Of a stretch of 64,000 nucleotides of DNA, positions 52,294-64,000 are shown one piece after another. The notes under the pieces were generated by a model. It was not told the origin of the DNA. It did not search any database and saw only the letters and a program-made list of their open reading frames with translations. Made by a program: the position numbers and the translations under genes. This stretch comes from a virus, in IMG/VR virus record IMGVR_UViG_3300032282_005530, positions 18,366 through 82,365 of that record; one strand, written 5' to 3'. Position 1 is the first letter of the stretch; every line of letters starts with the position of its first letter.

Positions 52294-52299
52294 AAAAAT

Positions 52300-52331: not shown

Positions 52332-52339
52332 GTGACTGA

Positions 52340-52540
52340 TTACGATATTTTTTCTATATAATCTATAGGTATATCTTTTAAGTATATATTTTCTGTTTGT
52401 ATTAATATGTCATATAATTTTAAAAGTTTTTTTCTTTTTACCACTATTGCTAATTGAATTTTTACTGCTGATAGAGGTTTATATATTACTAAATCTCCAA
52501 CATCAAATACATCAGTCCGGGTCTTTTTTGCTACTGTCAT
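52340..52540 (-). CDS. Small SH3/KOW-like protein
   Basis: This is 66 residues: FDVGDLVIYKPLSAVKIQLAIVVKRKKLLKLYDILI, a small barrel pattern (VGDxVxY) shared with four other genes nearby. It overlaps the 52512 gene by 29 nt. The function is unknown. Confidence 0.5.
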   Translation of the reverse strand: MTVAKKTRTDVFDVGDLVIYKPLSAVKIQLAIVVKRKKLLKLYDILIQTENIYLKDIPIDYIEKIS

Positions 52541-53087: not shown

Positions 53088-53185
53088 TTGTCTTCTCCGC
53101 TAATAATAAAAAATAAAAATATTAAATGAGGTACTGTTGTTATAATAATTAATATTATTAAATATATTGTAACATAGTCCACATA

Positions 53186-53515
53186 TTAAATATGTGTTTT
53201 ATATGTGCGTTTGCAATTTGGACATTTAGAAATTATATCATTATTTTCGATATTTAATAAAGAATATGTTTCTCGTGAACAATCTAGACAAATTGGATTA
53301 GCAAAAGCCAGTTGCTTTTCCATTAATTCTTCTGGTGTATCCACGAAAAAATCTTCTGATGAATATTCATCTTTTAAATATTCATTCCAATATTTATTCA
53401 GTTCTTCTTCTTCATCTTTATCCATTTTAATTCTCGTAAAATCCTTTGGTGACATAGAAATTTTATATGACGTCAATAATGCGATAAGTATATCATTAAA
53501 CATTTTTATGATCAC
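53186..53515 (-). CDS. Zinc-ribbon-containing small protein
   Basis: This is 109 residues. Acidic middle (KMDKDEEEELNKYWNEYLKDEYSSEDFFV), then CLDCSRETYSLLNIENNDIISKCPNCKRTYKT, a four-cysteine zinc ribbon. Start could be 53515 or the internal Met at 53503. The upstream gap 53088-53185 (AT-rich) shows no gene. Its position next to the UvsE gene is the only context clue. Confidence 0.5.
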   Translation of the reverse strand: MIIKMFNDILIALLTSYKISMSPKDFTRIKMDKDEEEELNKYWNEYLKDEYSSEDFFVDTPEELMEKQLAFANPICLDCSRETYSLLNIENNDIISKCPNCKRTYKTHI

Positions 53516-53520
53516 TAATA

Positions 53521-54450
53521 TTAATTAATAATACCAAAATCATTTCGCATTTTTAAAACCGATAAATTTTTTCCTTTTGCTTCCACATCAACATCAATTT
53601 TATTTTCCATAATTAATTGTTTTTGAACTTCCGGAATTTGATGAATATAATAGCTATGTTTACGGCGTTCTGTAAACGAACCGTTTTCTAGACCAATCTC
53701 AGTATTACTTAGATGCTGAAGAGGCTTGATGTTTCCCCATGTTTTCATCGCTTCATAGCACGCAGTAGAAACGTCCATATCGCCCGTATTGAATGTGTAG
53801 TGGTGCGAATCCCATACGATCGGAGTGCCTGTTTTATCGTGGATTTTAAGAAGTTCTGGAACACTATAAGAACTTTCATCATTCTCAAGTGTTAAACGTT
53901 TACGTGTCTGTTCGGGTAGGGAATTAATTGTTGTAATTGCTCGTTCGATGTTTCCACGTTTACCACCATGAATATTAATTGCATAATAAGGCGAATGATC
54001 AAAGCCCATCTGATCAAACATCCAAGCATGATAATTTAATTCTTTAATTGTATTTTTAATTACATCATCACTGTCACTGCTGATCACAGCGAATTGACCG
54101 GGATGACAAGTTACACGAATATTGTTCTTCTTGAACATGTCGCCAAGAAGTTTAAACTTATTTAGTAATTCTACACTTGATTTAGCAATATCTTCACAAA
54201 ATTCAAATAACGGAAGAACATTGCTAGACATGCGGAATGATTTAATATTAGCCGCATTAAGTTTGGGAACAAGTCTCAATAATTCATTAACATTATTGAG
54301 ATATGTTTGACGTATCATTTCTTCGCTATACTTGCCTTTTTTGAAGGCACCAAGTTGAAGTAATTTTTCGTCAATTGAATTTTCATAAACAATAGAACCA
54401 TCTCGTTTTGTACGAGGTTCCAACCATTGACAACACACAGTTAAGCTCAT
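53521..54450 (-). CDS. uvsE: UV damage endonuclease UvsE
   Basis: This is 309 residues from the ATG at 54450 (GGAGG upstream). MSLTVCCQWLEP is the opening; FRMSSNVLPLFEF, CHPGQFAVISS, YAINIHGGKRGN, LTLENDESSYSVPELL, and IVWDSHHYTFN contain the TIM-barrel metal-binding residues of UvdE/UvsE. It nicks DNA 5' of UV photoproducts. A GC-rich promoter-like segment is just upstream. The length matches the family. Confidence 0.9.
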   Translation of the reverse strand: MSLTVCCQWLEPRTKRDGSIVYENSIDEKLLQLGAFKKGKYSEEMIRQTYLNNVNELLRLVPKLNAANIKSFRMSSNVLPLFEFCEDIAKSSVELLNKFKLLGDMFKKNNIRVTCHPGQFAVISSDSDDVIKNTIKELNYHAWMFDQMGFDHSPYYAINIHGGKRGNIERAITTINSLPEQTRKRLTLENDESSYSVPELLKIHDKTGTPIVWDSHHYTFNTGDMDVSTACYEAMKTWGNIKPLQHLSNTEIGLENGSFTERRKHSYYIHQIPEVQKQLIMENKIDVDVEAKGKNLSVLKMRNDFGIIN

Positions 54451-54467
54451 GCAGCCTCCGAACCCGG

Positions 54468-54496
54468 AGACTAGCATGCCTAGGATGGCAAAGCAA
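54468..54496 (-). promoter_or_regulatory. Possible promoter upstream of uvsE
   Basis: TTGCTT, 17 bp, TAGTCT, again in a GC-rich patch, then CCGGGTTCGGAGG as ribosome site. The -35 is weak, so this is less certain than the tRNA promoters. Confidence 0.45.
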
Positions 54497-54501
54497 GCAG
54501 A

Positions 54502-54765
54502 TTACTTTTGGATTGGATAGTGTAAAATATATCCGTCAAGGATCATTTTTCTTAGTGAAGAATTTATAATACTTGTCTTAGATAAATCGGTTGATGGATT
54601 TTCTCCATCAAGCGTCCACTCTATTGTTGAAATATTATTTTGTATATTTACAATTATTCCTCTTCTACGAATGAACTCTTCTGATTTTAATGGATTTATT
54701 ATCTGTTGTATCAACAGATCTCCAACATTAATATTTCTAAATTCGTATGGTGATTTCATTATCAT
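54502..54765 (-). CDS. Small SH3-like protein
   Basis: This is 87 residues with INVGDLLIQQIINPLKSEEFIRRRGIIVNIQNNISTIEWTLDGENP, a GDL-type small barrel similar to 54974 and 55194. Overlaps the coiled-coil gene by 4 nt (ATGA). Function unknown. Confidence 0.48.
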   Translation of the reverse strand: MIMKSPYEFRNINVGDLLIQQIINPLKSEEFIRRRGIIVNIQNNISTIEWTLDGENPSTDLSKTSIINSSLRKMILDGYILHYPIQK

Positions 54766-54962
54766 GCTTCGTATGTGGTCATATATATTTCAGATAATAC
54801 TTTAATTCTTTCAGCAGTTAATTTTAATATTTCATCTACGCTTTCTACATCAGCATCTTTTTTATTATAATTTTTTTTTGCTGCTTCCCACTTCTGATCT
54901 AGCTCTTCAAGTTGCAATTGTAACTCAAGTTGACGGAAAGGAGTAGAAGTATTTTTTTTCAT
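54762..54962 (-). CDS. Small coiled-coil protein
   Basis: This is 66 residues (FRQLELQLQLEELDQKWEAAKKNYNKKD...), helical throughout, likely coiled coil. It lies between two SH3-like genes; no family is recognised. Confidence 0.45.
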   Translation of the reverse strand: MKKNTSTPFRQLELQLQLEELDQKWEAAKKNYNKKDADVESVDEILKLTAERIKVLSEIYMTTYEA

Positions 54963-54973
54963 TAGAAGTACCT

Positions 54974-55201
54974 TTATTTAACTACTTTGTAATATCCAAA
55001 AATTTCATTTTCTATACGCCATTTTATTATCGATTCAAATATTTCTGTTTCTAAAGCCATATCATTCCACAATACTGAATATACGTATTCTCCATCTAAA
55101 GCATCAAAATATACGCCAGTTATTAATCCGGAAGACAAGTTTAATCCATCAACATATTCTGTTAATAAGTCTCCTATAGAATATAATGGCGGTTCATTCA
55201 T
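54974..55201 (-). CDS. Small SH3-like protein
   Basis: This is 75 residues: YSIGDLLTEYVDGLNLSSGLITGVYFDALDGEYVYSVLWND, a GDL-type small barrel followed by a WR helix. Related to 54502 and 55194. Overlaps the 55194 gene by 8 nt. Confidence 0.48.
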   Translation of the reverse strand: MNEPPLYSIGDLLTEYVDGLNLSSGLITGVYFDALDGEYVYSVLWNDMALETEIFESIIKWRIENEIFGYYKVVK

Positions 55202-55430
55202 TTTTTATTATTTTACAACAAACTTTTAACTTTCTAGCAAGAGTGGTCTCAGAAAACAAATCATCCATTTGCGAACGAGACCAGTAGATTTTATAAAACA
55301 AAACATTATCACCATAGATATGATAAATTATTCCAATATCATGGCGAGAAGTTTCTAAATCATTTGGACAATAATGAATCAAGTCTCCAATAATTATATT
55401 TTTAAGAATTTGTTTTTTAGCTGTTGTCAT
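55194..55430 (-). CDS. Small SH3-like protein
   Basis: This is 78 residues from the ATG at 55430, the first start free of the upstream gene. NIIIGDLIHYCPNDLETSRHDIGIIYHIYGDNVLFYKIYWSRSQMDDLF has the family pattern (GDLxxY ... IYW). The longer frame begins in the neighbouring gene and is rejected. Confidence 0.45.
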   Translation of the reverse strand: MTTAKKQILKNIIIGDLIHYCPNDLETSRHDIGIIYHIYGDNVLFYKIYWSRSQMDDLFSETTLARKLKVCCKIIKNE

Positions 55431-55449
55431 TCTGCGGAACTTAGCAGAA

Positions 55450-55779
55450 TTAATCTTGGCCGTCAAGATCTTCAAGTTCTTCTTCGTTTTCCATTTCTTC
55501 ATCGCTATTTTGCTCAACCATATATTCCATTACAGAATGCATATAATCACTAGCAAGAGTAATATAAGAAGAAACCCACCCTGGAAGTTCATCATTTTTA
55601 TCAAATGATTTATAAATGATTAAACCATTTTTGATCATATCACGAAGCTCGCCTTTTGCCATTTTGCCTTCATGATCTTGCATGTGTTTACGACCCATTT
55701 CAGCAGCTTCGGTTTTTTGCTGAGATTCTTCTACTGCTTGTTCGATCATTTCAAGTAATATTTTATTATCTGATTTCAT
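55450..55779 (-). CDS. Small acidic helical protein
   Basis: This is 109 residues, acidic at the C-terminus (EQNSDEEMENEEELEDLDGQD) with a helical core (EMIEQAVEESQQKTEAAEMGRKHMQD). No domain is recognised. Located between small-barrel genes and the 55789 gene. Confidence 0.45.
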   Translation of the reverse strand: MKSDNKILLEMIEQAVEESQQKTEAAEMGRKHMQDHEGKMAKGELRDMIKNGLIIYKSFDKNDELPGWVSSYITLASDYMHSVMEYMVEQNSDEEMENEEELEDLDGQD

Positions 55780-55788
55780 TTTAATTCC

Positions 55789-56262
55789 TCATTTAAATGG
55801 CCAAGCATCATCAACAGCAAGCATACGATTAAGTACATTTATTTCTTTATCTAATTCTGCTTTTGTTTTTTGTAACATAGGAGTATCAGCAGCTTGACCT
55901 GACATTATTGCTTTTAAATATTTAACTTCAAGTGCAATCATTTTTGTTATTTGAGAAACCAAATCTTTATGGCCCTTCATTTTAAGTTTAATTTTTTTGC
56001 CAGTTAATTTAGCAGAAACGATATTTCTTATATTATCTGTAAATTGTTGCAATGCATCTTGTCGAACTTGTTCATCACTTTGATCTTCGATACTGCCGGC
56101 GTCTTCACCTTCTCTTACGCCTATTTTTCCAATTCTAAATCCCTTTTGTCTGCCATCTCCAACTCCATGATCTTCTATAAAATGGGGTATTTGATATTTT
56201 GCCGGTTCTTCATTATAAGCAATAACCTTACCCATTTTATATTCTTGATTATGTTTTCTCAT
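55789..56262 (-). CDS. Small protein, unknown
   Basis: This is 157 residues: an N-terminal segment (PAKYQIPHFIEDHGVGDGRQKGFRIGKIG), then a helical region (ALQQFTDNIRNIVSAKLTGKKIKLKMKGHKDLVSQI). No motif is recognised. Ten nt separate it from the 55450 gene downstream. Confidence 0.45.
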   Translation of the reverse strand: MRKHNQEYKMGKVIAYNEEPAKYQIPHFIEDHGVGDGRQKGFRIGKIGVREGEDAGSIEDQSDEQVRQDALQQFTDNIRNIVSAKLTGKKIKLKMKGHKDLVSQITKMIALEVKYLKAIMSGQAADTPMLQKTKAELDKEINVLNRMLAVDDAWPFK

Positions 56263-56312
56263 TTAATTTCTCCAAATATCTTTATTAATTATTCCTTATC
56301 TAATTATAATAC

Positions 56313-56708
56313 ATGGGAACAAAAAAATTAATTACTCCTAAAATCATAAAAAGAATTTATCTCATAGTCTATGATCAGCAAGAGTTCTTTGGTTACGATC
56401 CAAATACGCCAATAAAAGCTTTTAAAACAAAAAAATCTGCAGAAATATACGCAGCAACAAGAAATTTTGAATTTCAAACAATTTGTATGCTTGATGAAGA
56501 AGACTATGAAAGTTATGTTCTATCTAACAATTATTCTGATTATGTTATTTCAGTAAGCGATTTTCGAGACGCCCACGGTTTTATTAAAGAAGAGATGTTA
56601 AGATTACAAAGAAATAAAATGTCATCAAATCTATGGGAAATCTTAAACAATATAAAGCCGTTTAAAGTTATACCGATTGAATATATAACTGATTCAAAAG
56701 ATCTTTAA
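56313..56708 (+). CDS. Rightward small protein, unknown
   Basis: This is a 131-residue rightward gene in a leftward cluster: KIIKRIYLIVYDQQEFFGYDPNTPIKAFKTKKSAEIYAATRNFEF. The frame looks coding (AT-ending codons, no stops) and is not a shadow, since no leftward frame is long here. It ends 4 nt inside the convergent metallopeptidase gene. Whether it is translated from a leaderless transcript is not clear. No family is recognised. Confidence 0.5.
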   Translation: MGTKKLITPKIIKRIYLIVYDQQEFFGYDPNTPIKAFKTKKSAEIYAATRNFEFQTICMLDEEDYESYVLSNNYSDYVISVSDFRDAHGFIKEEMLRLQRNKMSSNLWEILNNIKPFKVIPIEYITDSKDL

Positions 56709-57958
56709 ACATCGATTTGGTCAATAACATGTGTACTGCTAAAGGATAATTCGCGATAGAATTTTTTCACGAATTCCTTGGTTATTTTGGCAATTTCTTT
56801 TTTGGCGTCTTTATCTTTCAGCATTTTTTCGAATTCATCACGAACAAGCTTGCGGATCTCTTCTTTTGTGAGTTCTTCTGTAAGGATTGTGCTTTCTTTT
56901 AGTATAACTTTAATCTTGTTCATAATGATATTTTCCTGCAATTGATCGTTTACAGAAGTATATAGAATTGACAAAGCATAATTATAAAATTTCGGATTAT
57001 ATGTTTTTATCGTTTCTAAATTATCTTTTATATTATTCATATACGTTTTAATGTTTTGCTGTTCAAGTTCTTTGTATAACTGTTTTTCTTCGGCGGATAA
57101 TTGAGAGCCAACTAATTTCTTTAAAAGAACTTTTTTTGCAAAAGGTAGTTGCTCTGGTTCAATATTTAGAATATTGATCATGTCATTAAATAAAGTAACA
57201 GAATTCTGTGCATATGTTTGAATTTCATTTGGATTATCGTTTGGCGTAGCACCAAGAGAAGTTGCACGTGGTGCGGCTCCATATGATGATAATCCAGTTG
57301 CTTGTCTAACTATGTTGACAAATAAATGTTGAAACTCATGATAAACAGTTCTCTTTGTAAGAGATAATTCCTTATCGATAGTTTTAAACAATTCTTCAAC
57401 ATTACTTTGAAATACAAGACCTTCAAATGGTTCAACATTATAATTGACAGAGATGCTCATGGATTCATAATCCATAATTCCGTGATACTTATCTTCTTTT
57501 CTTGAAAGTTCTAGGAGCATTTTAATGTCTTTAAAACCGGTTGAATCAAGATAGGCTTGCATTGCCTTGGTTGCTCGCTTTTGACCCATCCCAGCTGATT
57601 TAAATGCGTTTACAGCTGTTTCTTGTTTTAAGATGTGTGGAATTATTTTTTCACTTGGCAGAGAAGCAATTTCATATATTATTTTTTGAGACAAATCAGA
57701 ATCTAAATTGCTTTTAAAATCTGCAGCAGATATAGGACTTTTACCAACAAGTAGATCACTATATTGTTCTTTAAATCTATCAAGAGCAATTTTGTATAAA
57801 TTGGTGCCTTTTTTATTTTTTGATTCTTTCTTATTATTATGAACCAAGAATATTTCAACAAGTTTTAAATAATTTAATTTATAGAAATTCGAAATGCCAT
57901 CAACCAAATCATCGCTGACGGATATTGTTCGTCTTTCTTGAAGTTTAACTTTTATCAT
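56705..57958 (-). CDS. Large HExxH metallopeptidase-like protein
   Basis: This is 417 residues. LTKRTVYHEFQHLFVNIV contains HExxH; a downstream NEIQTYAQN supplies a possible third ligand (E). The C-terminal 60 residues are charged (EEIRKLVRDEFEKMLKDKDAKKEIAKITKEFVKKFYREL), a phage-typical tail. No signal peptide. It is coupled to the 57955 gene by a 4-nt overlap. Roles as virion or prohead proteases are possible. Confidence 0.65.
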   Translation of the reverse strand: MIKVKLQERRTISVSDDLVDGISNFYKLNYLKLVEIFLVHNNKKESKNKKGTNLYKIALDRFKEQYSDLLVGKSPISAADFKSNLDSDLSQKIIYEIASLPSEKIIPHILKQETAVNAFKSAGMGQKRATKAMQAYLDSTGFKDIKMLLELSRKEDKYHGIMDYESMSISVNYNVEPFEGLVFQSNVEELFKTIDKELSLTKRTVYHEFQHLFVNIVRQATGLSSYGAAPRATSLGATPNDNPNEIQTYAQNSVTLFNDMINILNIEPEQLPFAKKVLLKKLVGSQLSAEEKQLYKELEQQNIKTYMNNIKDNLETIKTYNPKFYNYALSILYTSVNDQLQENIIMNKIKVILKESTILTEELTKEEIRKLVRDEFEKMLKDKDAKKEIAKITKEFVKKFYRELSFSSTHVIDQIDV

Positions 57959-58971
57959 TTTGCTTTAAATATAATAGTATCTTTTTCTTTTAATTGTTCT
58001 TCAGTTTCTGTTGCAACGTTTTCATTTCCGGGTTTACGCACACCAAAGAAAAACATTCCACCAGCAGATTTATAATTTACAATAACAAATTCTTGTCCTT
58101 TATCATTTTTTACATCAAAATGATTGTTCATTTCTTTTGTAAAATTATTTCTTAATTCATCTAATTTTAGCGTATTATTCATATTCTTATATGCACTAAA
58201 AACTTCACTCAATATTGAACCGATTTGACTATCTGCTGTAAACGTATAGCGTACCGGTGGCTTTGTTGGATCGATCGAAGGATAATATTTTTGTTTGAAT
58301 ACAAGTCCACCAGCAAGCTTTTTCTTTGCTTCTTCTAATTTATCGTGATATTTTTGTTTTTTATCTACATCTGTACCGGTGCCTTTATCTAGATTAGAAA
58401 ATGAACCAGGTGTCTTACTTGTTATTAAATCTTTTATGCCAATCTTAACGTTATAGGCTCCGGGAGCGTTTTGACCTTGTATTAGTGCGCCCGTTGTACT
58501 AGCAAGCAGTTCAGCAAGGCTTTTACCATCTTTAAAAGTTATTTTTGTTGCCAGACTTGCTCCGGATGTATCTCCAATATTATATATATTTGCTAGATTT
58601 CTTGCTCGTCCATGATGTTCAACAACTTGATACACCGGTGTATTATCTCTTTGCTTATCAAGTCCTCTCGGTTCCAATATAAGTTCTGGTGGTTCTGTTT
58701 TTACTATACTCGAAAGGGCTGACATCATTCTTAATGCTCGTCTTTGTATATCGAATTTTTCTTCTTTAGAAGCCAAGATTTGTTTCTGTTCTTCTTCGGT
58801 TGGTTTAATTATAATTCTTTCTATATCTGCCGGTGGAACAGTTAGTCTTAAGAATTGCTGAGAATTCACGTTTGCCATCTGTGGATTTAGTTGTTCTTCT
58901 TCAACAAGCAATTCACGTTTTGGTTTTGCAAAACTATGCCAAGCATTATAAAATTGTTTGTAATTTGTCAT
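57955..58971 (-). CDS. Probable internal virion protein with tag-like N-terminus
   Basis: This is 338 residues starting MTNYKQFYNAWHSFAKPK at the ATG at 58971; the longer frame crosses the AT-to-GC junction and is rejected. The tag is followed by PQMANVNSQQFLRLTVPPADIERIIIKP, a basic/beta-rich body and a C-terminal Gly-rich segment. No enzymatic motif is recognised. It is the last gene before the GC-rich module. Confidence 0.5.
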   Translation of the reverse strand: MTNYKQFYNAWHSFAKPKRELLVEEEQLNPQMANVNSQQFLRLTVPPADIERIIIKPTEEEQKQILASKEEKFDIQRRALRMMSALSSIVKTEPPELILEPRGLDKQRDNTPVYQVVEHHGRARNLANIYNIGDTSGASLATKITFKDGKSLAELLASTTGALIQGQNAPGAYNVKIGIKDLITSKTPGSFSNLDKGTGTDVDKKQKYHDKLEEAKKKLAGGLVFKQKYYPSIDPTKPPVRYTFTADSQIGSILSEVFSAYKNMNNTLKLDELRNNFTKEMNNHFDVKNDKGQEFVIVNYKSAGGMFFFGVRKPGNENVATETEEQLKEKDTIIFKAK

Positions 58972-59036
58972 ATGATATAAATAGGCAAAAAGAAAAATCC
59001 CGGAAAAATTCCCAGGAAATTTTTTTCGATGCCCGA

Positions 59037-59103
59037 TTTTTAGAGATGTTTTAGATTTTTTGAGAATTCTTGACGCAGTGCGAAAAGTCAAAATCTCTAA
59101 AAA
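59037..59103. repeat. Inverted repeat at the AT/GC junction
   Basis: TTTTTAGAGAT at 59037-59047 and its exact reverse complement ATCTCTAAAAA at 59093-59103 flank a 45-bp core. It lies at the composition switch. The unassigned stretch 58972-59214 holds no convincing gene. Confidence 0.6.
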
Positions 59104-59167
59104 TTTCCCGTGTGTTGTGGGGGTACTTAGTACAGATCACCCACCCTCCCACCTATAGGGACATACA

Positions 59168-59200
59168 TTCCGGGGAATGGGGGACCTGTGTCCCCCGTCA
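59168..59200 (-). terminator. Tandem GC-rich hairpins after the 59215 gene
   Basis: CATTCC-GG-GGAATG and then GGGGGAC-CTGT-GTCCCCC. They would end leftward transcription of the small genes at 59215-59585; a T-run is absent, so the efficiency is uncertain. Confidence 0.4.
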
Positions 59201-59214
59201 CAGTATACAGTTGA

Positions 59215-59385
59215 TCAATCGTTCCAGTGCGCAGTAGCAATAGTGATCACGCGACAAGGCCATTCACGATCAGCTGTAGGATAGATGCCAGCGTCACGCA
59301 TGCGCTCAACCTGAAACGCTGTATAGATCAAAGAGATGATCGGGTCACGGCTGAAAGGTGAACGGAGATACATAAAGTTTTGCAC
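59215..59385 (-). CDS. Small protein, unknown (module gene)
   Basis: This is 56 residues from a GTG at 59385 with AGGAT 5 nt upstream; the AGGAT overlaps the stop of the 59397 gene, so translation is coupled. It has RSPFSRDPIISLIYTAFQVERMRDAGIYPTADREWPCR. The ATG at 59373 is an alternative start. No family is recognised. GC-rich codons. Confidence 0.5.
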   Translation of the reverse strand: MQNFMYLRSPFSRDPIISLIYTAFQVERMRDAGIYPTADREWPCRVITIATAHWND

Positions 59386-59396
59386 TGTGTATCCTT

Positions 59397-59585
59397 TCAA
59401 GCGTTGGCAGCGGGGATATATTCGCACACTTCGTTGATCAGTTCATTGATCAGATCAGCACAATAGGCAATCTCATCGTGATCATCGTTGTCGAAAGCCA
59501 CAAGCAAACAGCAGTCAAGCTGACGGAAAGATTGCATCATGGCGATATTGGAGAACTGTTCGGCGAGGTGCTTGGCGTTGTTCAT
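59397..59585 (-). CDS. Small protein, unknown (module gene, leaderless)
   Basis: This is 62 residues: MNNAKHLAEQFSNIAMMQSFRQLDCC, then an acidic/helical C-terminus (NDDHDEIAYCADLINELINEVCE). The ATG is 6 nt after the -10 of the 59592 promoter and no ribosome site precedes it, so a leaderless mRNA is likely. First gene of a two-gene unit with 59215. Confidence 0.55.
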   Translation of the reverse strand: MNNAKHLAEQFSNIAMMQSFRQLDCCLLVAFDNDDHDEIAYCADLINELINEVCEYIPAANA

Positions 59586-59591
59586 GCGATC

Positions 59592-59620
59592 ACTGTATCC
59601 CGATCACGTGGAGATCACAA
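59592..59620 (-). promoter_or_regulatory. Module promoter P1 (leaderless geometry)
   Basis: TTGTGA, 17 bp containing GATC, TACAGT, then 6 nt to the ATG at 59585. A perfect TGTGA-N6-TCACA site is centred about 61 bp upstream of the inferred start (59638-59653). Confidence 0.7.
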
Positions 59621-59637
59621 GCGCAAGAACAGAAAGT

Positions 59638-59653
59638 TGTGATGCAGGTCACA
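59638..59653. promoter_or_regulatory. CRP-like palindrome
   Basis: TGTGA-TGCAGG-TCACA, an exact match to the E. coli CRP consensus, one bp from dyad element R1 and at the class I distance (about -61) from P1. Confidence 0.55.
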
Positions 59654-59654
59654 C

Positions 59655-59714
59655 TTGCAAGGATCATGCCAGCGGGCACAAACCGGGTCGGCGCCCCTGG
59701 CATGGTTTATGCAA
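59655..59714. repeat. Dyad element R1 (60 bp)
   Basis: Left arm TTGCAAGGATCATGCCA, 26-bp core with CCGGGTCGG, right arm TGGCATGGTTTATGCAA. Both arms read outward as TGGCAYG-N4-YTGCA with GG-N10-GC, the sigma54 -24/-12 spacing. Lies between the 59592 promoter and the 59730 gene's stop. Confidence 0.85.
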
Positions 59715-59729
59715 GGGGATCCGGTAGGG

Positions 59730-60011
59730 TCACAGATCCCAGTTGAAATCCCAGTTGACGGAACGCATATTCTGTGCGTTGGCGATCGTCAGTTGCGACT
59801 GATACACCCGAAAGGATGCATCGCCATCGTGATCCGCTTCTTCGTTGACAGCGTCAAGGATCTGTGCTGCTTCCGAGCGGCGGATCGCACGGTTCCACGC
59901 TGCCTTGGCATTACGACGCAGAGACGGCGTGCCGTTGCACATCGGGCACATGCACGACTGATAGCCCTTGCGGGCGTGGTTGTAGTTGGCGAGGGTGCGA
60001 GCGGTGTTCAT
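59730..60011 (-). CDS. Small CxCxxC protein (module gene, leaderless)
   Basis: This is 93 residues with SCMCPMCNGTPS (four Cys in six residues), then an Arg/Ala-rich helical region and an aromatic tail (VNWDFNWDL). The ATG at 60011 is 6 nt after the -10 of the 60018 promoter, so leaderless translation is likely. Unrecognised; a zinc or nucleic-acid-binding role is possible. Confidence 0.55.
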   Translation of the reverse strand: MNTARTLANYNHARKGYQSCMCPMCNGTPSLRRNAKAAWNRAIRRSEAAQILDAVNEEADHDGDASFRVYQSQLTIANAQNMRSVNWDFNWDL

Positions 60012-60017
60012 AGGTGA

Positions 60018-60046
60018 TCCTTAGCAGAGAGATCGTGAGGTGTCAA
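60018..60046 (-). promoter_or_regulatory. Module promoter P2
   Basis: TTGACA, 17 bp with CGATCTCTCTGC, TAAGGA, 6 nt, ATG. Its -35 ends at the base before the stop codon of the 60047 gene, so it abuts it. Shares the CGATCTCT stretch with the promoters at 39965 and 61198. Confidence 0.75.
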
Positions 60047-60298
60047 TCAGTAATCGGCGGTGTTGTAGGCTTCCCAGATCAGGTGCTGCAACGCGCAATC
60101 GTATTCGTTGTGTTCCTGCTGATTCCAGATCTGGAACGCATAGGAATCAAAGAGCGGAGCACCGTCGTTGATCGTTTCGTCATCGTTGAAAAGAGCTTCA
60201 ACGTGCGAGCGGTCGCAGATCAAACGATCGTAATCGTTGCAACCGACAAAGAAGTTAGCGGGAGGAAGGACGGCACCGGGCTTGGTCGTGTTGTTCAT
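60047..60298 (-). CDS. Small acidic protein (module gene, leaderless)
   Basis: This is 83 residues from the ATG at 60298, chosen because it lies 6 nt after the -10 of the 60305 promoter; the 149-codon longer frame crosses that promoter. Sequence: FFVGCNDYDRLICDRSHVEALFNDDETINDGAPLF, then an aromatic C-terminus. Acidic, no recognised family; DNA-mimic or inhibitor roles are possible but unshown. Confidence 0.55.
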   Translation of the reverse strand: MNNTTKPGAVLPPANFFVGCNDYDRLICDRSHVEALFNDDETINDGAPLFDSYAFQIWNQQEHNEYDCALQHLIWEAYNTADY

Positions 60299-60304
60299 GC
60301 GATC

Positions 60305-60333
60305 AACGTAGCGGCTCCCGTTCATACCGTCAA
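60305..60333 (-). promoter_or_regulatory. Module promoter P3
   Basis: TTGACG, 17 bp, TACGTT, then 6 nt to the ATG at 60298. A perfect CRP-like palindrome (60352-60367) is centred about 61.5 bp upstream of the inferred start. Confidence 0.7.
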
Positions 60334-60351
60334 GCGGTGTTCTTGTGTTGT

Positions 60352-60367
60352 TGTGATAGCGGTCACA
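60352..60367. promoter_or_regulatory. CRP-like palindrome
   Basis: TGTGA-TAGCGG-TCACA, exact consensus; at -61.5 from the inferred start of the P3 transcript, the canonical class I position. Confidence 0.55.
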
Positions 60368-60377
60368 TCGGCGGCGC

Positions 60378-60406
60378 ACATTAGCAGATCCGTTCTGGGG
60401 TGTCAA
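60378..60406 (-). promoter_or_regulatory. Orphan leftward promoter O1
   Basis: TTGACA, 17 bp ending GGATCTGC, TAATGT. No ATG at 6 nt; the transcript would begin GCGCCGCCGATGTGACC and run into the 60298 gene region. Belongs to a set of three (60378, 61198, 63330). Confidence 0.6.
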
Positions 60407-60420
60407 TCTTTCTTTCTCTC

Positions 60421-60480
60421 TTGCAGGAATCGTGCCAAGGGGCCAAAACCGGTTCGGCAGGCTTGGCACGTTTATTGCAT
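60421..60480. repeat. Dyad element R2 (60 bp)
   Basis: TTGCAGGAATCGTGCCA, 26-bp core with CCGGTTCGG, TGGCACGTTTATTGCAT. Right arm is a full match to TGGCACG-N4-TTGCA. A CRP-like site begins 2 bp beyond its right end. Confidence 0.85.
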
Positions 60481-60481
60481 A

Positions 60482-60497
60482 CGTGATACAGATCACA
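60482..60497. promoter_or_regulatory. CRP-like palindrome (one mismatch)
   Basis: CGTGA-TACAGA-TCACA adjacent to R2 (1 bp gap). Confidence 0.4.
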
Positions 60498-60509
60498 CAA
60501 GCCGGGTTG

Positions 60510-60540
60510 ACAAAACAAAACCCGCCATCTAGGCGGGGTC
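60510..60540 (-). terminator. Rho-independent terminator after the 60568 gene
   Basis: On the minus strand ACCCCGCC pairs with GGCGGGT across a short loop, followed by TTTTGTTTTG. Confidence 0.75.
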
Positions 60541-60567
60541 TGCTCTTATTCCATTATGTGATCGCGA

Positions 60568-60894
60568 TCACGGACGCTTGCTGGGACACTTGACAGCGAC
60601 AAGACCGAGGCCAGCGGGCACCGTTGCCTGAGTTGCGAGACGACCGATCCACGCACCTTGCTTTGTCAAACGAATGTTGCGATTGCTTCCCGTCACAAGA
60701 CGCCGAGCACGCAACGCCGTCAACGACGTCTGACAAGCAGCGGGACCATGAAGGAAACGCAGCGTGTCAAGATCAACCGGCGAACCGAGCGAGGTCATTT
60801 CTGCGATGTGAGCGATCATCGCGGTTTGACGAGCACCGATCGTGGTCGTGGATCCGTAGTTCTGTGCAGCGAGGGTCTTGTAGTTGTTCGCCAT
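60568..60894 (-). CDS. Winged-helix-like DNA-binding protein (paralogue of 61970)
   Basis: This is 108 residues: QNYGSTTTIGARQTAMIAHIAEM, then CQTSLTALRARRLVTGSNRNIRLTKQGAWIGR, which looks like a wing plus recognition helix. GGAG lies 9 nt upstream of the ATG, so this gene uses a ribosome site, after a 5-codon leader ORF in its mRNA (60951-60968). Its paralogue at 61970 shares QNYGST-STIG-RQ, and GLG-VA near the end. A phage regulator, possibly of the module. Confidence 0.6.
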   Translation of the reverse strand: MANNYKTLAAQNYGSTTTIGARQTAMIAHIAEMTSLGSPVDLDTLRFLHGPAACQTSLTALRARRLVTGSNRNIRLTKQGAWIGRLATQATVPAGLGLVAVKCPSKRP

Positions 60895-60950
60895 TGTCTC
60901 TTTCTCCGTTGTTCTCTGCGTTGCGTTATGTGACGGAGGGCTAACCCGTC

Positions 60951-60968
60951 TTACTTACCGGCCCTCAT
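60951..60968 (-). CDS. Five-codon leader ORF (MRAGK) upstream of the 60568 gene
   Basis: The ATG is 6 nt after the -10 of the 60975 promoter, and the frame is five codons then TAA. A stem GAGGGC/GCCCTC surrounds it. This looks like a translated leader that could control downstream expression. Coding status is inferred from the spacing only. Confidence 0.4.
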   Translation of the reverse strand: MRAGK

Positions 60969-60974
60969 GCGTAC

Positions 60975-61003
60975 AGAGTACACGGTGATCGCTTGACTGT
61001 CAA
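60975..61003 (-). promoter_or_regulatory. Module promoter P4
   Basis: TTGACA, 17 bp (GTCAAGCGATCACCGTG), TACTCT, 6 nt, ATG of the leader ORF. Spacer is nearly the same as at 62386. Confidence 0.7.
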
Positions 61004-61032
61004 CGCTGGCGCACTCGCAGATCACTTTCGCT

Positions 61033-61048
61033 TGTGTGCAGGATCACA
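61033..61048. promoter_or_regulatory. CRP-like palindrome (one mismatch)
   Basis: TGTGT-GCAGGA-TCACA, 67 bp left of R3. Confidence 0.3.
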
Positions 61049-61115
61049 ACGATCCGGCTTGCCTTGCTGGAATGTCTTTGCTAATGTCTGCAACTTTTTT
61101 TCTTTCTATCCCGCC

Positions 61116-61175
61116 TTGCAAGTTTCGTGCCAGCGTACACAAACCGGTTCGGGCGGCTTGGCATGGTTCTTGCAT
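61116..61175. repeat. Dyad element R3 (60 bp)
   Basis: TTGCAAGTTTCGTGCCA, 26-bp core with CCGGTTCGG, TGGCATGGTTCTTGCAT. Downstream of orphan promoter O2 (61198), which reads leftwards through it. Confidence 0.85.
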
Positions 61176-61197
61176 AGAGCCTGCTTTCTGGGGGCGA

Positions 61198-61226
61198 ACA
61201 CTAGCAGAGAGATCGCGGACTGTCAA
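61198..61226 (-). promoter_or_regulatory. Orphan leftward promoter O2
   Basis: TTGACA, 17 bp with CGATCTCTCTGC, TAGTGT. No ATG at 6 nt; the transcript starts TCGCCCCC and would include R3. Could make a non-coding RNA containing the dyad. Confidence 0.6.
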
Positions 61227-61281
61227 CGGGCAAAGAGGTGATCCCGGTACAGTAGAAAGTGATCTCCCACGAGCACGACGC

Positions 61282-61310
61282 TTGACGGCAGAGCGATCAC
61301 CCGCTATACT
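61282..61310 (+). promoter_or_regulatory. Module promoter P6 for the 61376 gene
   Basis: TTGACG, 17 bp with CGATCAC, TATACT. Transcript starts about 61317, giving the structured 5' leader of the 61376 gene. Confidence 0.75.
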
Positions 61311-61316
61311 GGTCAG

Positions 61317-61360
61317 GTCGGAAGGGTTCGCGGTTGCCGCCGACACTAACCTAAACCGCT
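61317..61360 (+). ncRNA. Structured 5' leader (candidate pseudoknot), copy A
   Basis: GTCGG (61317-61321) pairs with CCGAC (61340-61344); the loop GCGGTT (61330-61335) is complementary to AACCGC (61354-61359) downstream. The copy before the paralogous gene at 63512 has the same pairing. The SD-containing GTCGG at 61362 offers an alternative partner for CCGAC in this copy. Confidence 0.5.
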
Positions 61361-61375
61361 TGTCGGAGTCTGAAT

Positions 61376-61774
61376 ATGTCGCAGAATGTCGCCCCCGTCC
61401 GTAAGGTTCGCGTCACCGCTCAACACGTTGCGTTTCTCGCGTTGACTGAGACTGTAAACGCTGTCACGGCCCTGCACAATACTCCGGGATCGGAGATTGC
61501 CCCTGCCACGTTCGACGCTGCGGTTGAACTTCTCGCGGGTCGTCCCGATGTCCGCGAGGCTCTTGAGGGTCTGCGTTCCGACCTCTTTGGTGAGGGTGGA
61601 TCGGGTGAGCGTGGCCGTCCGGCTGCAAAGATCGGTGAGTCTCGCGGATACAAGGTTCAGCAGGTGGGAGATTCGGATCCGTTTATCCGTCTGCCCGTCT
61701 CGCTCCTTGGTCTTTCCAAGGGTGGAACCGCCACCGTGACCTTCGACAATGGTGTGATCCGCGTCAAGGGTTGA
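61376..61774 (+). CDS. Small regulator-like protein, AbrB-type C-terminus (paralogue of 63512)
   Basis: This is 132 residues. A basic opening, PVRKVRVTAQHVAFLALTE, a Gly-rich linker (FGEGGSGERGRPAAKIGESRG) and a C-terminal beta region FIRLPVSLLGLSKGGTATVTFDNGVIRV that resembles a SpoVT/AbrB-type swapped hairpin (IxLPxxLLxxLGLxxGDxVxV). Both copies share a conserved 5' leader and promoter type. It may bind DNA or its own RNA; inferred. Confidence 0.6.
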   Translation: MSQNVAPVRKVRVTAQHVAFLALTETVNAVTALHNTPGSEIAPATFDAAVELLAGRPDVREALEGLRSDLFGEGGSGERGRPAAKIGESRGYKVQQVGDSDPFIRLPVSLLGLSKGGTATVTFDNGVIRVKG

Positions 61775-61778
61775 CCTA

Positions 61779-61823
61779 TTGACAAGGGTTTGCGGTCATC
61801 CTCCGAAACCGCTGTCCTCTTGC
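61779..61823 (+). other. Decayed third copy of the leader motif
   Basis: AGGGTTTGCGGT, then CCTCCGA-AACCGCT and CTTGCAAG, similar in order to the leader motifs at 61317 and 63451 but without the GTCGG/TCCGAC stem. It lies just after the 61376 gene's stop. Its function is unclear. Confidence 0.35.
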
Positions 61824-61824
61824 A

Positions 61825-61862
61825 AGCCTCCCGTCAAGGGGGGTTTTTGTTTTTCTTTTTTC
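61825..61862 (+). terminator. Rho-independent terminator of the 61376 gene
   Basis: CCTCCC-GTCAA-GGGGGG with one G-T pair, then TTTTTGTTTTTC. Confidence 0.7.
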
Positions 61863-61866
61863 TGCC

Positions 61867-61882
61867 CGTGATCTGAATCACA
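61867..61882. promoter_or_regulatory. CRP-like palindrome (one mismatch)
   Basis: CGTGA-TCTGAA-TCACA, one bp left of dyad element R4. Confidence 0.4.
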
Positions 61883-61883
61883 G

Positions 61884-61943
61884 GAGCAAGAATCGTGCCA
61901 ACCCGGGCGAACCGGTTCGGAAAGGCCGGCATAGTTTTTGCTA
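61884..61943. repeat. Dyad element R4 (60 bp)
   Basis: The most divergent copy: GAGCAAGAATCGTGCCA, 26-bp core with CCGGTTCGG, CGGCATAGTTTTTGCTA. Geometry is still exact (60 bp, 26-bp core, GG-N10-GC in both arms). Confidence 0.8.
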
Positions 61944-61969
61944 TGCCATTCCTTTCTGTATGTTGTGTT

Positions 61970-62335
61970 TTATTTTCTGACTGGCATGTTTGTTGCAACG
62001 AATCCAAGACCCTTTACAATACTGCTACGATGAACCATCATAGCAACGTCAAAGCCTCTTGCGGTGACTTGATAACAACGACCGCGACCACCAGCACGCT
62101 TGATAAGTTTACGACCGAGCAAAACCATGATCACGCTTTCAATAGTACTGACAGGATGATGATCTTTCAGACTTTCCACACTACAGTTTGCACCATTCTT
62201 GTTGGCGATGAAAATATCATAAATGACAGAAACCTGCCGTGGACCGATTGTGCTGGTTGAGCCGTAGTTTTGTTTGGCATACTGATCGGCCTTTTTGTTG
62301 CGACGGCGTTGGGCTTGCGTGTTAGTCGTTCCCAT
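61970..62335 (-). CDS. Winged-helix-like DNA-binding protein (paralogue of 60568)
   Basis: This is 121 residues. A basic N-terminal extension (TNTQAQRRRNKKADQYAK), then QNYGSTSTIGPRQVSVIYDIF, and STIESVIMVLLGRKLIKRAGGRGRCYQVTARGFDVAMM, a likely wing. It ends GLGFVATNMPVRK. A ribosome-like stretch (AGGCAAGAGAAA) precedes the ATG, with a 5' UTR of about 45 nt from the 62386 promoter. A regulator role is inferred. Confidence 0.6.
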   Translation of the reverse strand: MGTTNTQAQRRRNKKADQYAKQNYGSTSTIGPRQVSVIYDIFIANKNGANCSVESLKDHHPVSTIESVIMVLLGRKLIKRAGGRGRCYQVTARGFDVAMMVHRSSIVKGLGFVATNMPVRK

Positions 62336-62385
62336 TTTCTCTTGCCTTTGCTGGGGTTTTCTGTTCGCCGGGACGGCTTGAGATC

Positions 62386-62414
62386 ATTATACCCGGTGAT
62401 CGCTTGACCGGCAA
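62386..62414 (-). promoter_or_regulatory. Module promoter P5
   Basis: TTGCCG, 17 bp (GTCAAGCGATCACCGGG), TATAAT, then GATCTC. It is the strongest -10 of the set; the next ATG is 45 nt further on, so this one is not leaderless. Confidence 0.75.
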
Positions 62415-62475
62415 GGGTGACGCTTCCGAGCCGGGGAAATAGTTTGTGGCGGTTTTCATCGTTTTATTTGGTGGG

Positions 62476-62491
62476 GGTGATAGAGATCACA
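62476..62491. promoter_or_regulatory. CRP-like palindrome (one mismatch)
   Basis: GGTGA-TAGAGA-TCACA, 12 bp left of R5. Confidence 0.35.
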
Positions 62492-62503
62492 AAAAATAAA
62501 ATC

Positions 62504-62563
62504 TTGCAATATTCGTGCCAGCCTCACAAAGCCGGTTCGGGCACCTTGGCATGGTTTATGCAA
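62504..62563. repeat. Dyad element R5 (60 bp)
   Basis: TTGCAATATTCGTGCCA, 26-bp core with CCGGTTCGG, TGGCATGGTTTATGCAA. The 62336-62643 gap holds P5, this element, CRP-like sites on both sides and promoter P7. Confidence 0.85.
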
Positions 62564-62574
62564 GACCTGAACTT

Positions 62575-62590
62575 TGTGATCCATAACACA
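62575..62590. promoter_or_regulatory. CRP-like palindrome (one mismatch)
   Basis: TGTGA-TCCATA-ACACA, 11 bp right of R5 and at -61.5 from the inferred start of the 62644 gene's leaderless transcript. Confidence 0.4.
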
Positions 62591-62608
62591 CTGTTCGCAC
62601 CGCAACGC

Positions 62609-62637
62609 TTGACGGCAGGGCAGATCGCTGCTACACT
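62609..62637 (+). promoter_or_regulatory. Module promoter P7 (leaderless geometry)
   Basis: TTGACG, 17 bp with CAGATCGCTGC, TACACT, then 6 nt (AACCCC) to the ATG at 62644. Confidence 0.75.
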
Positions 62638-62643
62638 AACCCC

Positions 62644-62796
62644 ATGACGATCATGCACCTCTCTCTCGCGGAACTGGCAAACATGAACGATGACGCTTGG
62701 ATCTGGAAGGATGACATGATGGTGTGGCCGGAAACGGATCATCCCATCGCTGAGTGTTTCTCTGAAACCAACAGCGACGATTGCAGCGACGATTGA
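62644..62796 (+). CDS. 50-residue acidic protein (module gene, leaderless)
   Basis: The frame runs MTIMHLSLAELANMNDDAWIW, then an Asp/Glu-rich tail ending SDDCSDD. The ATG lies exactly 6 nt after the -10 and no ribosome site precedes it; an inner ATG (62653) is an alternative. A strong terminator follows. It is short, acidic and distinct; no family is recognised. DNA mimicry or inhibition is a possible role. Confidence 0.55.
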   Translation: MTIMHLSLAELANMNDDAWIWKDDMMVWPETDHPIAECFSETNSDDCSDD

Positions 62797-62845
62797 TCGC
62801 CATAACATAGCCCGAAAGGGACAGCAATAGCAAAACCCTACACTA

Positions 62846-62877
62846 AGCCCCGATTACAGGGGCTTTTTCTTTTTTTG
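62846..62877 (+). terminator. Rho-independent terminator of the 62644 gene
   Basis: AGCCCC-GATTACA-GGGGCT followed by TTTTTCTTTTTTT. Confidence 0.85.
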
Positions 62878-62894
62878 TGTGCCGGAAACGTCGC

Positions 62895-62954
62895 TTGCAA
62901 GTATCATGCCAAGCCTGCCGAACCGGGTCGGAACCCTTGGCACGTATTGTGCAA
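62895..62954. repeat. Dyad element R6 (60 bp)
   Basis: TTGCAAGTATCATGCCA, 26-bp core with CCGGGTCGG, TGGCACGTATTGTGCAA. Right after the terminator of the 62644 gene and before the stop of the 62967 gene. Confidence 0.85.
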
Positions 62955-62966
62955 GGGCCGTTTGTC

Positions 62967-63155
62967 TCAGTAGTTGTCGTTTTCCCGGATTGCATTCCAC
63001 AGTTCACCGGCGTTGCTGACAGTTCGCCAGCCCTTGGGAGTTTCAATATCCCACACCTTGTCCTTGTCGTCCCAGAAGAACTGCCAACCCTTTACGTTGA
63101 TCGTGGCGAAGCCGACGTTGATTGCCATCTTCTCTTGGATTTCGTTGTGGTTCAT
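62967..63155 (-). CDS. Small protein, unknown (module gene, leaderless)
   Basis: This is 62 residues starting MNHNEIQEKMAINVGFATINVKGWQFFWDDKDKVWDIETPKGWRTV, an aromatic small beta domain. The ATG at 63155 is 6 nt after the -10 of the 63162 promoter. The longer frame (from 63224) crosses the promoter and is rejected. Confidence 0.55.
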   Translation of the reverse strand: MNHNEIQEKMAINVGFATINVKGWQFFWDDKDKVWDIETPKGWRTVSNAGELWNAIRENDNY

Positions 63156-63161
63156 AGGGAT

Positions 63162-63190
63162 CTTGTAGCAGGTGATTGCTAATCCGTCAA
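63162..63190 (-). promoter_or_regulatory. Module promoter P8 (leaderless geometry)
   Basis: TTGACG, 17 bp (GATTAGCAATCACCTGC), TACAAG, 6 nt, ATG of the 62967 gene. Confidence 0.7.
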
Positions 63191-63215
63191 GCATTGATCT
63201 TTTTTCTTCTATCCC

Positions 63216-63275
63216 CTGCAACATTCATGCCAACACTGCAAAGCCGGTTCGGCCGGGCTGGCACGCTTTTTGCAG
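63216..63275. repeat. Dyad element R7 (60 bp)
   Basis: CTGCAACATTCATGCCA, 26-bp core with CCGGTTCGG, TGGCACGCTTTTTGCAG. Orphan promoter O3 reads leftwards through it. Confidence 0.85.
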
Positions 63276-63286
63276 GACCTGGACTC

Positions 63287-63302
63287 TATGATTCACGTCA
63301 CA
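63287..63302. promoter_or_regulatory. CRP-like palindrome (one mismatch)
   Basis: TATGA-TTCACG-TCACA, 11 bp right of R7. Confidence 0.3.
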
Positions 63303-63329
63303 CTATGGCCCCGGTCACAAGGGGGCGGC

Positions 63330-63358
63330 ACACTAGCAGATCACCTACAACCCGTCAA
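63330..63358 (-). promoter_or_regulatory. Orphan leftward promoter O3
   Basis: TTGACG, 17 bp with GTGATCTGC, TAGTGT. Transcript starts GCCGCCCCC and would contain R7; no ATG at 6 nt. Confidence 0.6.
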
Positions 63359-63415
63359 CCCCCGATCCGTGTGACCAGTCGCACAGATAAAAGTGATCTG
63401 CAACGAGCACGACGC

Positions 63416-63444
63416 TTGCGCTTTCTACAGATCGCGGCTACAAT
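63416..63444 (+). promoter_or_regulatory. Module promoter for the 63512 gene
   Basis: TTGCGC, 17 bp with CAGATCGCGGC, TACAAT. The stretch upstream, AAGTGATCT...ACGAGCACGACGCTTG, is shared with the 61282 promoter region. Confidence 0.7.
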
Positions 63445-63450
63445 GGGGAG

Positions 63451-63494
63451 GTCGGAAGGGTTCGCGGTTGCCTCCGACACTAACCTAAACCGCT
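63451..63494 (+). ncRNA. Structured 5' leader (candidate pseudoknot), copy B
   Basis: GTCGGA (63451-63456) pairs with TCCGAC (63473-63478), and loop GCGGTT (63464-63469) is complementary to AACCGC (63488-63493), as in copy A. The flanking sequence is nearly identical to copy A over about 45 nt. Confidence 0.5.
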
Positions 63495-63511
63495 TGCAAG
63501 AGGATCACACC

Positions 63512-63910
63512 ATGACGAACACGATCAACAACGCTCGCAAGGTTCGCGTTACCGCCCAGTCGGTCGCTTTCATGATGCTGACGGAAAGTGCCGATGCGGT
63601 GCTTGCTTCGCATAGCAAGCCCGGTCACGAGATCGCACCCGCTACCTTTGAGGGTGCCTTGGAACTCCTCGCGGGTATGCCTGAAAAGCGTGCAGCCCTT
63701 GAGGCTCTGCGTTCCGATCTCTTTGGTGAGGGTGGAACGGGCGAGCGTGGTCGTCCCGCTGCCAAGGTTGGCGAATCGCGGGGTTACAAGGTGCAACAGG
63801 TCGGCGATTCCGATCCGTTTATCCGTCTGCCGGTTTCTTTGCTCGGTCTGGCAAAGGGTGGTGTTGCAACCGTGTTCTTTGACAACGGTGTGATCCGCGT
63901 CAAGGCTTGA
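63512..63910 (+). CDS. Small regulator-like protein, AbrB-type C-terminus (paralogue of 61376)
   Basis: This is 132 residues, same length as the 61376 product and very similar after the first 35 residues, especially from the Gly-rich linker to the end (FIRLPVSLLGLAKGGVATVFFDNGVIRVKA). AGAGG precedes the ATG by 9 nt. A duplicated gene with a duplicated 5' leader suggests that the leader is part of its control. Confidence 0.6.
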   Translation: MTNTINNARKVRVTAQSVAFMMLTESADAVLASHSKPGHEIAPATFEGALELLAGMPEKRAALEALRSDLFGEGGTGERGRPAAKVGESRGYKVQQVGDSDPFIRLPVSLLGLAKGGVATVFFDNGVIRVKA

Positions 63911-63922
63911 TCGCCTAGACGG

Positions 63923-63951
63923 TTGACAGCCGCTAGCCCCCCGGCTACAAT
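63923..63951 (+). promoter_or_regulatory. Module promoter P9 at the right edge
   Basis: TTGACA, 17 bp (ending CCCCCCGGC), TACAAT. The downstream gene, if any, is outside the window. A GCCCCC/GGGGGC pairing overlaps it. Confidence 0.65.
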
Positions 63952-64000
63952 AGGGGGCACCTAGCGGATCGGGAACGACATAAACAGTCCCCGAATCCGA

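Follow-up and report, generated by a model that had tools for sequence, protein, structure and literature searches.

Back-to-back sigma54-like sites at the borders of exchangeable gene cassettes in a phage island

What does a symmetrical 60-bp sequence do when a phage carries it seven times, each time between small genes? The question is raised by a stretch of 64,000 nucleotides (hereafter the window), which forms the last 64 kb of the 82,365-base IMG/VR record IMGVR_UViG_3300032282_005530. A preliminary description of this DNA had listed seven elements in which two 17-bp arms, each reading outward with GG and GC 10 bases apart, flank a 26-bp core; the seven starts proved exact, the 17-26-17 structure is present in every copy and GG-N10-GC in 14 of 14 arms. 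Here these elements are compared with their relatives in other viruses, all of them metagenomic fragments except two named phages (VpV262 and PaP1). The answer proposed is a tentative one, namely that the elements would be symmetrical sigma54 promoter joints between exchangeable cassettes. The elements, with the scores of their arms in the sigma54 matrix introduced below, are:

59655 to 59714, element 1: two outward sigma54-like arms (-24/-12; 20.3 and 18.4 bits) around the 26-bp core
60421 to 60480, element 2: arms of 19.5 and 20.1 bits
61116 to 61175, element 3: arms of 21.4 and 19.7 bits; right end of a recently exchanged block
61884 to 61943, element 4: arms of 20.9 and 14.8 bits; tail-to-tail gene border
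62504 to 62563, element 5: arms of 22.5 and 18.1 bits; head-to-head gene border
62895 to 62954, element 6: arms of 20.8 and 15.6 bits; tail-to-tail gene border
63216 to 63275, element 7: arms of 20.6 and 21.4 bits; head-to-head gene border
61981 to 61997, plus strand: lone fifteenth sigma54-like half-site, 18.9 bits, conserved in the related contig L012 (G001:20034)

Sigma54 is a major alternative sigma factor of Gram-negative bacteria. Its -24/-12 promoters carry GG and GC 10 bases apart, a spacing that is essential, within the consensus YTGGCACG-N4-TTGCW; they need an AAA+ activator (bacterial enhancer-binding protein, bEBP) with an upstream site, and the transcript starts about 12 bases past the GC. 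Judged by their sequence, the arms of the elements are very probably sites of this kind. The scoring matrix was derived from 50 sigma54 sites of E. coli found by chromatin immunoprecipitation (PMC4591121) and is used in place of one from the phage's own host; with it, the 14 arms of the window average 19.6 bits (range 14.8-22.5), compared with a leave-one-out mean of 14.1 and a maximum of 20.5 for the E. coli sites, and they lie closer to the -24/-12 consensus than nearly all of these. Pooling 48 arms from three islands gives YTGGCAYG-N4-YTGCW, with G-25, G-24, C-23, A-22, T-14, G-13 and C-12 invariant in all 48, and beyond the core motif of the preliminary description the arms show Y at -27, A or T only at -11, C about as often as T at -21 and T at -15, as in sigma54 sites. 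Half-sites with at most two mismatches number 25 in the window (8.1 expected; no shuffle reached 25), and sites scoring at least 12 bits in the matrix number 15 in the GC-rich island that holds the elements (0.3 expected from shuffles). The sigma54 reading already offered for the arms is therefore strongly supported by GG-N10-GC, the additional positions, the spacing and the matrix scores. So is the earlier argument for a site acting as DNA: the N4 stretch and the C/T base vary independently between the two arms and do not pair, and for this reason an RNA hairpin or terminator was rejected. Consensus, spacing and minor base preferences are thus those of bacterial sigma54 (RpoN) promoters; unlike these, the phage arms always stand back-to-back, at gene borders of any orientation, and no activator site has been identified beside them.

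Which part of the element matters can be judged from its relatives. A search of related phages and metagenomes, which had been proposed as a check, found the element in three other lineages, where it flanks partly different genes: nine copies in L012, eight in L014 (and in L013, a near-duplicate of L014) and eight in L249, two further contigs being duplicates of known ones. In the window, the 26 core bases form a palindrome, CCGAACCGGTTCGG, whose centre falls on the dyad axis and which is better kept in L014 than in the window itself. Several of the L012 palindromes are damaged, yet the 26-base distance is retained in seven of the nine copies, two being 61 bp long. All eight L249 elements measure 44 bp and have a 10-bp core without the palindrome, with the arms retained at 17.4-20.8 bits. 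Since L249 keeps the arms around a different core and L012 has damaged palindromes, the arms are the conserved part and the core a lineage-specific addition, nearly uniform within one genome; the palindrome is putatively the site of a lineage-specific regulator and not the essence of the element. A search for the core-bearing element in genomes turned up one match that lacks sigma54-like sites, in an archaeal metagenome-assembled genome. In all three lineages in which the right end of the island is visible, it consists of two elements only about 24 bases apart:

L012, 13124 and 13208: paired elements at the right end of the island
L014, 10666 and 10751: the same
L249, 9447 and 9515: the same

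The surroundings of the elements raise a second question, as their base composition is not that of the phage. Left of 59.1 kb the window has about 30% guanine plus cytosine (GC) and a large T4-like gene set with PhoH, tRNAs and a cytidyltransferase; at about 59.1 kb the GC content jumps from about 30% to 53% (53-60%) and remains there through to the end of the window. The jump is real, because contig L026 is 100% identical to window positions 48675-60305, across the jump, and because GC-rich islands of about 4-6 kb, with low-GC DNA on both sides, occupy the same locus in the three related lineages, whose left flanks are homologous; an assembly chimera is thereby ruled out. The island looks like host DNA. 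In it (window 59100-64000, L012 and L014) GATC is about four times over-represented (78 against 18.8 expected), an excess not seen in the low-GC part, and GTGATC/GATCAC occurs 28 times against 2.3 expected, often within the spacers of sigma70 promoters. Neither the island nor its proteins matched phages in INPHARED or plasmids, and nothing significant was found in PHROGs or Pfam. The island and its cassette genes are as follows:

59100 to 64000: accessory island of 53% GC, truncated by the end of the record
59730 to 60011, minus strand: family B gene, 93 aa, CxxC...C zinc-ribbon-like
60047 to 60298, minus strand: small cassette gene, 83 aa, probably leaderless
60568 to 60894, minus strand: family A gene, 108 aa, winged-helix model
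61376 to 61774, plus strand: family C gene, 132 aa, possible AbrB/SpoVT-like C-terminus
61970 to 62335, minus strand: family A paralogue, 121 aa
62644 to 62796, plus strand: family D gene, 50 aa, probably leaderless
62967 to 63155, minus strand: cassette gene, 62 aa; an unrelated gene instead in L012
63512 to 63910, plus strand: second copy of family C

Family A proteins are modelled, with modest scores, as winged helices like MntR, DtxR and MarR, and family C with a helical N-terminus and, at low confidence, a possible AbrB-like end; because of these models the island may encode regulators. Window genes 59397, 60047 and 62644 begin within a few bases of a predicted start site, and the leaderless look (window 59585, 60298 and 62644) comes from a -10 box ending about six bases ahead of the ATG.

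The idea that the elements allow modules to be shuffled is borne out by comparison of the lineages, in which cassettes are swapped, inverted and exchanged with breaks at the elements. Of the six cassettes that lie between elements in the window, five have collinear counterparts in L012 at 80-97% identity, and an unrelated gene takes the place of the one between elements 6 and 7. A near-identical tract (97%; about 60507-61174) comprises one cassette plus element 3, and divergence resumes at the last base of that element. L014 and L249 hold the same cassette families in other orders and orientations, and half-elements that border the same end of a cassette are more alike than others (p = 0.004). 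At the level of sequence comparison this shows that exchange takes place at the elements, and it fits a dedicated recombinase or ordinary homologous recombination alike. It is quite improbable that the elements are primarily recombination sites, like integron attC or the promoter-plus-stem-loop (PeSL) elements of phage T4, with a secondary resemblance to sigma54 promoters: exchange and inversion at the elements, as well as half-elements that track the adjacent cassette ends, would be expected of such sites, but the same pattern is accounted for by homologous recombination between repeats, the L249 core is a different one, and recombination has no need of the agreement with sigma54 that the arms show at every informative position. 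Integron attC sites carry the core sites RYYYAAC and GTTRRRY, work as a folded single strand and have an integrase nearby. By eye, neither core is found in the seven elements, and the island shows no visible recombinase (no integrase search was made).

Two phage systems come close to this arrangement. In T4-type phages, the PeSL is an early promoter joined to a terminator stem-loop (Arbiol 2010 and Comeau 2014, via PMC4503421); like the present element, it is a regulatory motif that recurs between small genes and at the borders of exchange, here those of the 60507-61174 block and of the cassette between elements 6 and 7. Unlike the PeSL, the present element is a dyad of sigma54 type, and the sigma70 promoters and the terminators are separate and outside it; the distinction drawn in the preliminary description holds, as the element has no sigma70 promoter or terminator hairpin of its own. 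PAK_P1-like phages have 41-nt repeated sigma70 promoters that point in a single direction in a region of small early genes (PMC4309531). They too thus have a repeated promoter-like element among small early genes, but of sigma70 type and one direction, whereas the element of the window is an outward pair of sigma54 type. Sigma54-like sites are also present in these phages, without mention in the passages of that description consulted here.

An additional layer of regulation is suggested by the sequences next to the elements. Most of the small inter-element genes have a promoter of sigma70 type, and a terminator often stands ahead of the next element; the earlier claim of an own promoter for these genes stands for most cassettes. 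Moreover, CRP-type sites with at most one mismatch number 11 in the island (4.9 kb; 0.21 expected), 14 in L012, 11 in L014 and 13 in L249. Those of the window that lie near elements or promoters, and the promoters and terminators concerned, include:

59638 to 59653: CRP-type site TGTGATGCAGGTCACA, 1 bp from element 1
60352 to 60367: CRP-type site, centre at -61.5 to the sigma70 start of gene 60047-60298
60482 to 60497: CRP-type site, 1 bp from element 2
61033 to 61048: CRP-type site, centre at -72.5 to the sigma70 start of gene 60568-60894
61867 to 61882: CRP-type site, 1 bp from element 4
62476 to 62491: CRP-type site, 12 bp from element 5
62575 to 62590: CRP-type site, 11 bp from element 5 and at -61.5 to the sigma70 start of gene 62644
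63287 to 63302: CRP-type site, 11 bp from element 7
61282 to 61310, plus strand: sigma70-type promoter TTGACG-17-TATACT of gene 61376, GATCAC in the spacer
62609 to 62637, plus strand: sigma70-type promoter TTGACG-17-TACACT of gene 62644, GATC in the spacer
62386 to 62414, minus strand: sigma70-type promoter TTGCCG-17-TATAAT of gene 61970-62335
60521 to 60537, minus strand: terminator-like hairpin and T run, 3' of gene 60568-60894, ahead of element 2
61824 to 61846, plus strand: terminator-like hairpin, 3' of gene 61376-61774, ahead of element 4
62845 to 62865, plus strand: terminator-like hairpin, 3' of gene 62644-62796, ahead of element 6

The CRP-type sites lie outside the elements and in helical register with them, at offsets of 1, 10-12 and 19-20 bases from the element ends and one at 28, a regularity matched by none of 5000 random sets; in L249 the offsets are 10-11 and 17-20. 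In CRP class I promoters, the centre of TGTGA-N6-TCACA lies at -61.5 relative to the sigma70 start, or further upstream by one or two helical turns. Eight of the 11 non-redundant upstream centres lie at an activating distance, -61.5 or -71.5/-72.5 from a sigma70 start (binomial p about 2e-8); activation by CRP is strong at -61.5, -71.5 and -72.5, with none at -66.5 and almost none at -76.5 (PMC6301791). These positions are good evidence that host CRP would be the intended partner of the sites, which makes the host probably a proteobacterium with CRP. The arrangement is that of lac-type class I promoters, from which it differs in the addition of an upstream sigma54 dyad and in its occurrence in a phage. 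CRP is not a general partner of sigma54-like clusters, as no enrichment of its sites was seen near those of other phages.

Taken together, the elements and the CRP sites at activating positions suggest a phage island wired to the carbon and nitrogen signals of its host. In the model proposed here, each element would be a symmetrical joint between cassettes that presents two outward -24/-12 sites to the sigma54 RNA polymerase of the host, which is expected to bind them and to fire when an activator is present. Around the joints, the low-GC phage would have a regulatory region that resembles host DNA; most of the cassettes there have a separate sigma70 promoter as well, and several of these promoters have, at an activating distance, a site to which host CRP would bind. 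As the joint reads alike both ways, a cassette could be swapped or inverted and would face an identical sigma54 promoter site either way; exchange, reordering and inversion of cassettes would come about by recombination between joints, and arms pointing antisense would be the price of a joint usable in both directions.

Sites of this type are not confined to the window and its relatives. Back-to-back pairs with correct spacing occur in more than 119 IMG/VR stretches among the matches listed, and a control pattern in which one arm is one base short, searched over a somewhat narrower range of gaps, occurs at 10 IMG/VR loci, treated as chance; the spacing within the arm therefore matters. Pairs exactly 26 bases apart are present in 14 IMG/VR stretches (complete scan). 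The site was found in 41 of 41 such records, the reversed control pattern almost never. In 40 loci there are 189 strong sites compared with three in Markov copies, a count that measures clustering and not frequency among all phages, because the loci were picked for holding such sites. With related contigs counted once, at least 78 unrelated viral groups have three or more strong sites within 300 bases. No paper describing phages with arrays of sigma54 sites was found among the open-licence papers searched, and clusters of these sites in dozens of unrelated viruses seem not to have been described before. They include five sites in Vibrio phage VpV262 (L144, 172-331), in non-coding DNA that adjoins the terminal repeat on its inner side, and, near the genome end of Pseudomonas phage PaP1, sigma54-like clusters that lie within non-coding DNA or close to it (L145, 78.7-79.9 kb and 90.6-91.6 kb); the VpV262 and PaP1-type clusters make the sigma54 idea testable in cultured phage-host pairs.

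The arrangement of these sites bears on whether sigma54 is the protein that binds them. Divergent neighbours favour gaps of 6-10, 16-21, 26-29 and 36-38 bases and convergent ones gaps of 2-5, which would suit a compact protein, and an improbable alternative is therefore that another DNA-binding protein of phage or host, sharing the sigma54 consensus, uses them as a structural, partition or replication platform. DnaA boxes in some arrays point the same way: two perfect boxes (TTATCCACAGG) lie within the sigma54-like arrays of L136 and L139, which form one group of related contigs. However, the DnaA enrichment near clusters vanishes when related contigs are counted once (two groups), and an origin of replication was rejected on this ground. 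Furthermore, unrelated phages share one and the same motif, a constancy that fits a conserved factor of the host, and positions on which the sites of unrelated phages were not selected share the base preferences of sigma54. IHF-type sites, enriched about four-fold in 15 of the 78 groups, fit sigma54 promoters, a weak indication. A phage-encoded RpoN-like repressor was also considered and rejected, since PF04552 (the RpoN DNA-binding domain) is absent from 47 virus records.

If the arms are sigma54 sites, it has still to be asked whether they work as promoters. The simple proposal that the elements are the promoters of adjacent genes is not supported in that form, as most cassettes have a sigma70 promoter and antisense-pointing arms are nearly as preserved as the others. 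Several observations weigh against promoter joints more generally. Antisense arms at tail-to-tail borders score 18.5 bits compared with 19.7, and at those borders both arms would yield antisense RNA only; many cassettes have a sigma70 promoter; convergent sites 2-5 bp apart in other phages could hardly be used as two promoters at once; the central palindrome, being absent in L249, is not the general activator site; and a search of the phage records, which are fragments, brought up no gene for a sigma54 activator (PF00158). For a phage-encoded activator, the 47 virus records likewise gave no hit except one weak AAA+ match, in a 473-kb record. Well-kept antisense arms, the missing activator and the alternating arrays of other viruses favour poised or decoy sites, whereas the CRP positions and a slight advantage of sense over antisense arms (p = 0.047) favour working promoters. 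The main rival, which we consider rather unlikely, is accordingly that host sigma54 polymerase is bound inactive at sites that lack an activator and need not drive genes, the many copies, multiplied by replication, titrating this polymerase (and perhaps CRP) or insulating cassettes as roadblocks. Sites stronger than native ones, clustered and independent of gene orientation would be expected of decoys, as would their alternating orientation and density across unrelated viral groups and the near absence of sigma54 and activator domains from the records that bear them; the sigma54 holoenzyme is moreover known to sit inactive on promoters, most E. coli sites being silent (PMC4591121). On the other hand, titration requires neither a spacing fixed in nearly all copies of a genome (26 or 10 bp) nor a helical register of CRP sites, no roadblock repression is seen in E. 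coli (PMC4591121), and the CRP sites, placed where CRP would activate sigma70 promoters, are not mere decoys themselves. A broader proposal, at present doubtful, is that sigma54-site clusters are a widespread unrecognised phage element that captures host sigma54 polymerase in a poised state, as a sponge or switch against the sigma54 programmes of the host, the dyads of the window being a version placed at cassette borders and tied to CRP control.

Other viruses show further arrangements. The 236-kb phage L131 has a convergent sigma54-like pair at several gene borders (1863, 7566, 9209, 9888, 10405 and 10971), which by comparison appears to be an analogue of the arrangement in the window; several of these pairs are flanked by GGGGAGAAAA inverted repeats. 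In L099, a tandem array of about eleven sigma54-like sites (5667-6040) has repeat units of 52 and 63 bases, which are whole helical turns. At the right flank of the island (L014, 11948-17121; L012, 14186-18970) lie many small divergent paralogues that start with MKYxxGDLxV, almost all on one strand. Finally, the related phage G003 carries a chaperonin (Cpn60) and a DUF2827 protein (L149, 4335-5909; L150, 10388-11554), which are possible clues to the host.

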